DNA of 64,000 bases, taken from contig SCVN01000016.1 in the NCBI GenBank assembly GCA_004296885.1, forward strand, positions 1 through 64,000, read 5' to 3'. This document shows, one piece after another, positions 56,620 to 58,287 of this stretch. The DNA is from Nitrospirota bacterium (GTDB lineage: Bacteria > Nitrospirota > Nitrospiria > Nitrospirales > Nitrospiraceae). The first letter of the stretch is position 1; each line of letters opens with the position of its first letter. A model generated the notes under the pieces. It was not told where the DNA came from, ran no database searches, and was given only the letters and a program-made list of their open reading frames with translations. A program made the position numbers and the translations under genes.

Positions 56620-57666
56620 GTGCGTAAACTCAAGCTGCGAGAGGGCACCAATACCGCCAGCCTGTTCGGCTCGCGCGATCTGCACCTGAAAATGATCGAA
56701 AGCGATCTGGGGGTGCAGCTGGCGGCCCGCGGCGACGAGCTGATTCTGACCGGTTCCCAGGAGGCGGTGCGGAAAGCCGAACGCCTCGTGACCGAGCTGG
56801 CGGCTCTGACCGCCGAAGGCTACGAGCTGAAGGCCGAAGACGTGGCCGTGGCCCTCAAGGCGTCGCGCGGGCCCGGGGAAGTCCCGCTCAAGGAACTGCT
56901 CCTCAGCTCCGTGCCCATCGCCACGGCCAAACGTTTTGTCGCACCCAAGTCGGCGGCGCAGAAGGCTTACCTGGAAGCGATTCAGACTTACGATATTGTC
57001 ATCGGGATCGGCCCGGCCGGGACCGGGAAAACGTATTTGGCCATGGCCATGGCGGTGGCCGCGCTGACGCGCAAGGAGGTCAGCCGCATCATCCTGGCCC
57101 GGCCGGCGGTGGAGGCGGGGGAGAAGCTGGGGTTTCTGCCCGGCGACATGTACGCCAAGGTGAATCCCTATCTGCGGCCCCTCTATGACGCCCTCTACGA
57201 CATGATGGATATGGAGCGGGCCAATCGGCTGGTGGAACGGGGCGAGATCGAGATCGCGCCGCTGGCCTTCATGCGCGGCCGCACGCTCAACGATTCGTTC
57301 GTGATCCTGGACGAGGCGCAGAACGCCACCGCCGAGCAGATGAAGATGTTTCTGACCCGACTGGGCTTCAATTCCAAAGCGGTTGTGACCGGCGACATCA
57401 CGCAAGTGGATCTGCCCTCCGACCGGGTGTCCGGGCTGATCGAAGCGCGGGAGATTCTCCAGGAAATTCCCGGCATCCAGTTCGTCTACTTCGACCAGCG
57501 GGACGTCGTGCGTCACCGTCTGGTCCAGGAGATCATCGAGGCCTACGACCGGCACAGCCCGATCCGCCATGGCGGAATCCGGGACGACAAGTCGGGACGG
57601 GGAGCGAGCCGAGGGCCACTCCGTGGGCAGCGAGGCCGGGCCGGCAACGGGGAGCAGCCCCACTGA
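56620..57666 (+). CDS. phoH: PhoH-family ATPase
   Basis: The 348-residue cytoplasmic ATPase/RNA helicase-like protein has the PhoH Walker A GPAGTGKT near residue 130, R-P-A-V-E-A-G-E-K-L-G-F-L-P-G-D, and Walker B ILDEAQNA. It commonly precedes ybeY and probably cooperates in RNA processing (inference). GTG start; GGAGG lies 16 bases upstream, longer than ideal. Its stop codon abuts a palindromic element. Confidence 0.95.
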   Translation: MRKLKLREGTNTASLFGSRDLHLKMIESDLGVQLAARGDELILTGSQEAVRKAERLVTELAALTAEGYELKAEDVAVALKASRGPGEVPLKELLLSSVPIATAKRFVAPKSAAQKAYLEAIQTYDIVIGIGPAGTGKTYLAMAMAVAALTRKEVSRIILARPAVEAGEKLGFLPGDMYAKVNPYLRPLYDALYDMMDMERANRLVERGEIEIAPLAFMRGRTLNDSFVILDEAQNATAEQMKMFLTRLGFNSKAVVTGDITQVDLPSDRVSGLIEAREILQEIPGIQFVYFDQRDVVRHRLVQEIIEAYDRHSPIRHGGIRDDKSGRGASRGPLRGQRGRAGNGEQPH

Positions 57667-57790
57667 CAGGATGTTGAAAAATGTTGCCAGCTTTGTTCTC
57701 GCATCACGCAGAGGCTCGCCGTACGGCGCGGAGTACGACTCGCCTCTTTGTTCGCTGCGGCCTCGCTGGACAGCCTTTTTGAACATCCTG
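57667..57790. repeat. Palindromic element between phoH and ybeY
   Basis: Terminal 15-base inverted repeats CAGGATGTTGAAAAA (57667-57681) and TTTTTGAACATCCTG (57776-57790) differ at one base; nested inner pairs include CCAGC/GCTGG and CAGAGGC/GCCTCT. The 124-base unit starts on the base after the phoH stop and ends 14 bases before ybeY. It resembles a non-autonomous palindromic or MITE-like repeat. Confidence 0.7.
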
Positions 57791-57804
57791 GAGACGGTTT
57801 GCTG

Positions 57805-58287
57805 ATGCCGGTGACGGTGCGTTGTTCGGTCCGGCGCATCCCGCTGCGCCGCGCCGGAATCGAACAGTTGGCGCAGCGTATTTTGGATGCGACGGGCGAG
57901 GTCCGAGCCGACGTGAGCCTGTCGTTCATCGGCGATGCGTCCATGCGCCGCCTCAACCGGCAGTATCGCCGCAAGGATGCCACCACCGACGTGCTGGCGT
58001 TCCCGATGCGACATATCCGACCACGCTTCATGCCTCACGCTTCACGTTTCACGTCTTCCATGCTCGGCGACGTGGTGATCTCACTCCCGCAGGCGGTCCG
58101 CCAGGCGCGCGAGCGCGGCCTCCCGTTGCATCATGAACTCGCCACGCTGCTCATCCACGGGATGCTCCATCTCCTCGGGTACGACCATGAACGAAATGTG
58201 CGCGAAGCCCAACGTATGCAGCGGAAGGAGCGGGCCGTTCTGCGGGCCGTCAGCCCCGTGCCGGCGTTGGTGAAGCGGAAAGGGTAA
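57805..58287 (+). CDS. ybeY: Endoribonuclease YbeY
   Basis: A 160-residue rRNA-maturation nuclease. The zinc/histidine motif is HELATLLIHGMLHLLGYDHE; the Y-R-x-K-D-x-x-T-D-V-L-A-F-P-M and LGDVVIS motifs are also present. Between the latter two, about 17 residues are encoded partly by an in-frame heptad repeat (58022-58056). ATG at 57805 is chosen from family alignment; GGAG is 11 bases upstream. Confidence 0.95.
   Translation: MPVTVRCSVRRIPLRRAGIEQLAQRILDATGEVRADVSLSFIGDASMRRLNRQYRRKDATTDVLAFPMRHIRPRFMPHASRFTSSMLGDVVISLPQAVRQARERGLPLHHELATLLIHGMLHLLGYDHERNVREAQRMQRKERAVLRAVSPVPALVKRKG
58022..58056. repeat. In-frame heptad repeat inside ybeY
   Basis: Five consecutive 7-base units cacgctt, catgcct, cacgctt, cacgttt, cacgtct lie in phase within the ybeY reading frame, encoding part of an Arg/His/Ser-rich linker between the DVLAFPM and LGDVVIS motifs. 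Confidence 0.7.

Follow-up and report, generated by a model that had tools for sequence, protein, structure and literature searches.

The 124-base palindrome that separates phoH from ybeY in a Nitrospirota genome is, with a probability that we put at about 0.87, the hairpin part of a non-autonomous IS5-type MITE, its transposition being read from sequence comparison. The element is short and multi-copy, contains no transposase gene, carries terminal repeats matching those of IS5-family insertion sequences, is flanked by 4-bp duplications of the YTAR type and has empty counterpart sites; the family is new, its type is known. The repeat family that litters Nitrospira genomes now has a likely source insertion sequence and a rule of site choice. 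A literature search found no description of this Nitrospira family, and Rfam covariance models gave no match to the palindrome up to E=1.

The phoH-ybeY junction and its empty site

In the window, i.e., the whole 64,000-nucleotide stretch of DNA that was analysed, the palindrome occupies positions 57667-57790, directly after the phoH stop codon, and both its coordinates and its anatomy are as proposed in an earlier note made from the sequence alone. Among named records, the nearest phoH genes come from Nitrospira or Nitrospiraceae MAGs (75-77% identity). The features of the junction are the following:

56620..57666, + strand: phoH (Pfam PF02562, 324 bits)
57663..57666, + strand: CTGA, left copy of the 4-bp target duplication; the empty site in congener G001 reads CCCCACTGATGCCGG
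57664-57666, + strand: TGA stop codon of phoH, within the target duplication
57667..57790, + strand: palindrome of 124 bases, forming the conserved hairpin portion of the probable MITE
57667..57681, + strand: outer left terminal inverted repeat CAGGATGTTGAAAAA, the same as one end of IS5-family elements in relatives
57776..57790, - strand: the left repeat in an inner, inverted copy that closes the palindrome; the intact element has another repeat as its outer right end
57790..57793, + strand: GGAG, putative Shine-Dalgarno of ybeY as read from the sequence, 11 bases before the ATG
57791..57801, + strand: 11 bases from palindrome to duplication, taken as the remnant of a ~76-bp tail whose right outer repeat would have been lost
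57802..57805, + strand: CTGA, the target duplication on the right side, whose final A also opens the ybeY ATG
57805..58287, + strand: ybeY (Pfam PF02130, 120 bits), starting 138 bases after the phoH stop

The arm CAGGATGTTGAAAAA (57667-57681) matches the complement of TTTTTGAACATCCTG (57776-57790) at 14/15 positions, in accordance with the earlier description of 15-base terminal inverted repeats with one mismatch. Folded as RNA, the palindrome reaches -53.2 kcal/mol, compared with -37.2 +/- 3.2 kcal/mol in shuffled sequences (z -5.0, 0/200).

The exact empty site is present in the congener G001, whose phoH is 96% identical, whereas the filled site in the window reads CCCCACTGA-[135 bp]-CTGATGCCGG. 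Comparison of these two junctions therefore defines the insertion as 57667-57801 (135 bp) plus a 4-bp CTGA duplication; the edges of the palindrome were correctly placed, but the insertion runs 11 bases further to the right than first proposed. The CTGA duplication is a near match to YTAR but not strictly YTAR, and the 11-base remnant has no visible derivation from the tail of intact copies. Two further congeners, G002 and G003, share the insertion at the same site, with an altered right arm in G003. Most other Nitrospira carry no insertion, and their phoH and ybeY share one base, as TAATG or TGATG; at exactly this junction another Nitrospira MAG (L062) has a full-length copy of independent origin. 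The locus is a natural experiment, empty in G001 and filled in the window species, G002 and G003, in which a hairpin splits an overlapping and normally coupled gene pair. Longer, modular versions of the palindrome were seen at the phoH-ybeY junction of G003 (L216) and at five other loci (L011, L012, L015, L039 and L046), where extra hairpin modules of ~50 and ~110 bases replace or extend one palindrome arm, even between orthologous sites.

The intact unit, its probable IS5-family source and its distribution

Intact copies measure 196-202 bp in total: behind the palindrome they carry ~76 more bases, which terminate in a second outer repeat (its consensus, read inwards, is CAGGCTGYKGAAAAAC). The palindrome can therefore be divided into three parts: the outer repeat on the left, the interior of the stem, and the same repeat again as an inner, inverted copy. 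The tail was seen in 56 of the copies examined. In the flank analysis 53 copies were scored as tailed; identical 4-bp flanks were present in 32 of these 53, mostly CTAG, TTAG or CTAA, i.e., YTAR, the rule that IS5 target duplications follow (PMC10359306). The palindrome alone was rejected as the mobile unit: copies read as tail-less have no duplication at the right edge of the palindrome, whereas the ~200-bp copies do have duplications.

A DDE transposase search of relatives, followed by a terminal repeat search, recovered insertion sequences of ~1.33 kb from G003 (of the same genus), G005 and G015; their ends are of the CAGGATGTTGAAAAA type, and CTAG flanks the elements on either side. Their transposase matches NF033581 (IS5_4) with 253 bits against a cut-off of 140, and also PF05598 and PF01609. 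An IS1182 origin was discarded: weak PF13751 matches had led to the right elements, but NCBIfam assigned them to IS5_4 and the IS1182 model stayed below its cut-off. The MITE and the insertion sequences both carry CAGGATGTTGAAAAAG / CAGGCTGTTGAAAAACT-type ends, and these terminal repeats vary together by genome, since in G032 the resident insertion sequence and the small elements alike use the variant CAGGMTGCGGAAAAA. The Nitrospira element shares its terminal repeats, 15-18 bases at each end, and its 4-bp YTAR/CTAG duplications with the IS5-family insertion sequences (NF033581, IS5_4), which occur in relatives as CTAG-flanked autonomous copies, and with their MITEs. It differs by its size (only ~200 bp), by the absence of a transposase gene, by an interior without homology to that of the insertion sequences, the shared sequence being confined to the ends (15-18 bases), and by the third, inner repeat that makes the 124-base palindrome.

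The precise empty site in a congener, the 4-bp duplications and the IS5-family ends all agree with the mobile or non-autonomous element that had been suspected at this locus. The search for an associated transposase gave a divided answer: relatives of the IS5_4 transposase were found in 8/61 genomes, but the same search found no matching IS5-family transposase in the window genome, and the window copy is therefore probably stranded there, fixed and no longer able to move. As the shared ends and the duplications suggest, an IS5 transposase acting in trans would move the ~200-bp unit into YTAR-like sites. Such targets overlap stop codons. In this genus, one copy entered the overlap of the phoH stop and the ybeY start, duplicating CTGA, and the outer end of its tail is now missing.

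The earlier suggestion of a repeat present in many copies was borne out. A covariance model built from 41 copies located the palindrome at 44 distinct places in the window genome, after removal of 12 places reported on both strands, and BLASTN returned 55 matching pieces; the 13-base terminus, with at most one mismatch, occurs 82 times in this genome compared with 4 times for a reversed control pattern. The palindrome is thus neither unique in its genome nor conserved at this site only, although two congeners share the insertion. Copies were detected by BLASTN in 55/61 genomes (the genome itself and 60 relatives of the same order); in a wider sample, the strongest matches came from the same class and mostly weaker ones from elsewhere in the phylum. 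Outside the order, the covariance model matched G168 and G178 (same class) and G091 (same phylum) with E values of 1e-16 to 1e-19, and because of these matches the family may be older than the order or may have spread laterally. Very short versions of 64-72 bases, in which the outer arms alone are kept, were also noted (L022, L023, L026 and L029); these are probably inner deletions that preserve the stem.

Position behind stop codons and possible retention of the hairpin

Genome context was analysed on stretches around the copies, using codon-scored genes; a count based on the longest ORFs was dropped because it had been distorted by antisense ORFs, the DNA being GC-rich. With these home-made gene calls, and for copies that are related and not fully independent, a gene runs into the left end of 42 of the 49 copies in the window genome, and 33/49 lie within -3 to +6 bases of the upstream stop. 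In other genomes, tail-less copies abut the upstream (left) stop more often than intact ones do (33/60 versus 8/53; Fisher p=1.2e-5). Among these 113 copies, a stop lies at the left or at the right end of 8 and 9 intact copies, respectively, showing no side bias, compared with 33 and 5 tail-less copies. Since YTAR overlaps stop codons, site choice explains why the palindromes hug stop codons, but it leaves this sidedness unexplained. Most simply, insertion would show no bias, and old copies would persist chiefly with the hairpin directly after a stop codon: copies in that position would be kept and the others would decay.

The stem itself varies in a concerted manner, with changes on both sides in 19 of 34 pairs, compared with a mean of 7.3 after shuffling (71 versus 13 cells). 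At three orthologous pairs of sites the palindrome is 95-99% identical, whereas the 500-base flanks are 85-93% identical; another shared site has recognisable palindrome arms and a strongly diverged tail. Taken together, the side bias of tail-less copies, the covariation of the stem and the conservation between orthologs, modest lines of evidence of which the last comprises few (three) pairs, suggest retention as a 3'-end RNA hairpin.

A serious competitor, which we nevertheless consider rather less probable than its negation, is a plain selfish MITE without a host role, whose position and structure would reflect nothing but target choice and the needs of transposition. YTAR indeed accounts for the stop-codon adjacency of fresh copies, and the structure could matter in transposition; however, the bias for one side appears in tail-less copies and not in fresh ones, and the orthologous copies at three sites are more conserved than the DNA around them.

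Proposed RNA role and comparison with other repeats

Once transcribed, the window copy would fold, immediately behind the phoH stop, into a long hairpin that is preceded by an A tract and contains a U tract in its 3' arm. This hairpin would most likely act as a 3'-end RNA structure, as a partial terminator, an exonuclease barrier or a processing site. That the palindrome has such a role behind phoH is, in our estimation, a little more doubtful than probable. For ybeY, whose expression the element could alter according to the earlier note, the insertion abolishes the overlap of the phoH stop with the ybeY start that is seen in relatives. The empty site has within phoH a GGGGAG, 11 bases before the ybeY ATG, which is a likely ribosome site; in the window a GGAG lies at the same spacing, its first G being the final palindrome base and the rest belonging to the 11-base remnant, and G002 and G003 have GGGG at this place. 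We infer that translational coupling between phoH and ybeY was lost and that a new ribosome site took over for ybeY, which, its overlap with phoH gone, would be read from a site of its own.

The palindromes could instead be mainly ordinary bidirectional transcription terminators that replace native ones. Either strand can be read symmetrically as A tract, GC stem and U tract, and 15 of the 49 copies in the window genome lie between convergent genes. However, a terminator scan of the window palindrome returned no canonical intrinsic terminator, the long interrupted stem with its A and U tracts being outside the pattern of the scan, and 26/49 copies, that of the window among them, lie between same-direction genes, many with small gaps. 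A strong terminator between closely spaced same-direction genes should be harmful. The scan and the gene spacing also weigh against the 3'-end role proposed above; mainly ordinary terminators we regard as unlikely. For the hairpin as a more general 3'-end element, we tentatively propose, at slightly less than even odds, that MITE hairpins throughout the order were co-opted as a standard RNA element at the 3' ends of Nitrospira genes. In this view, insertion would be unbiased, hairpins behind stop codons would be kept, the tail would be lost and the stem would come under selection, also within operons, where the coupling of neighbouring genes would be altered.

REP/BIME sequences are palindromes that closely follow stop codons, also inside operons, and the Nitrospira palindromes likewise lie close behind stop codons, within operons too. 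A REP/RAYT-type origin, with mobilisation by a Y1 single-strand transposase, would account for a short, multi-copy intergenic palindrome adjoining stop codons, but REPs lack target duplications and IS5-like terminal repeats, whereas intact copies of the Nitrospira MITE show both, the duplications being 4 bp long and the repeats standing at each end. As, in addition, no Y1_Tnp (PF01797) was found in the window genome by a search that was positive in the E. coli control, this origin was rejected as very improbable. Still less credible is a purely local phoH-ybeY regulatory hairpin to which the genome-wide copies would be irrelevant: the insertion is indeed common to G002 and G003, but this explanation is contradicted by the empty sites in G001 and most other Nitrospira, by the 44 places in the genome and by the independent L062 copy.

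The IS5-type MITE resembles ERIC, which we take to be the same as the RU-1 repeat, in being an intergenic palindromic repeat (127 bp for ERIC) in tens to hundreds of copies; to our knowledge the two are unrelated in sequence, and they differ in that a source insertion sequence is identified for the Nitrospira MITE. The RU-1 repeat is 127 bp long (PMC2759123), and ERIC copies at 3' gene ends can alter transcript levels (PMC10969869). QMITE2 of Coxiella, Correia and RUP/SPRITE are MITEs located in 3' untranslated regions or forming hairpins that are RNase III-processed or terminator-like (PMC10969869); they belong to other hosts and other source elements, and the Nitrospira MITE is known from sequence alone.

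In the relatives L360 (G022:C11) and L361 (G007:C60), and probably in G020:C235, phoH is an open frame of ~780-800 codons in which an intein-like insert, starting with CIASGS or CVASGS and ending with HN, splits the P-loop GPAGTGK|TYLA. The window ybeY carries at 58010-58060 an in-frame insert with CACGCTTCACGTTTCACG; the sequence found near this point of ybeY in other Nitrospira is dissimilar and varies in length.
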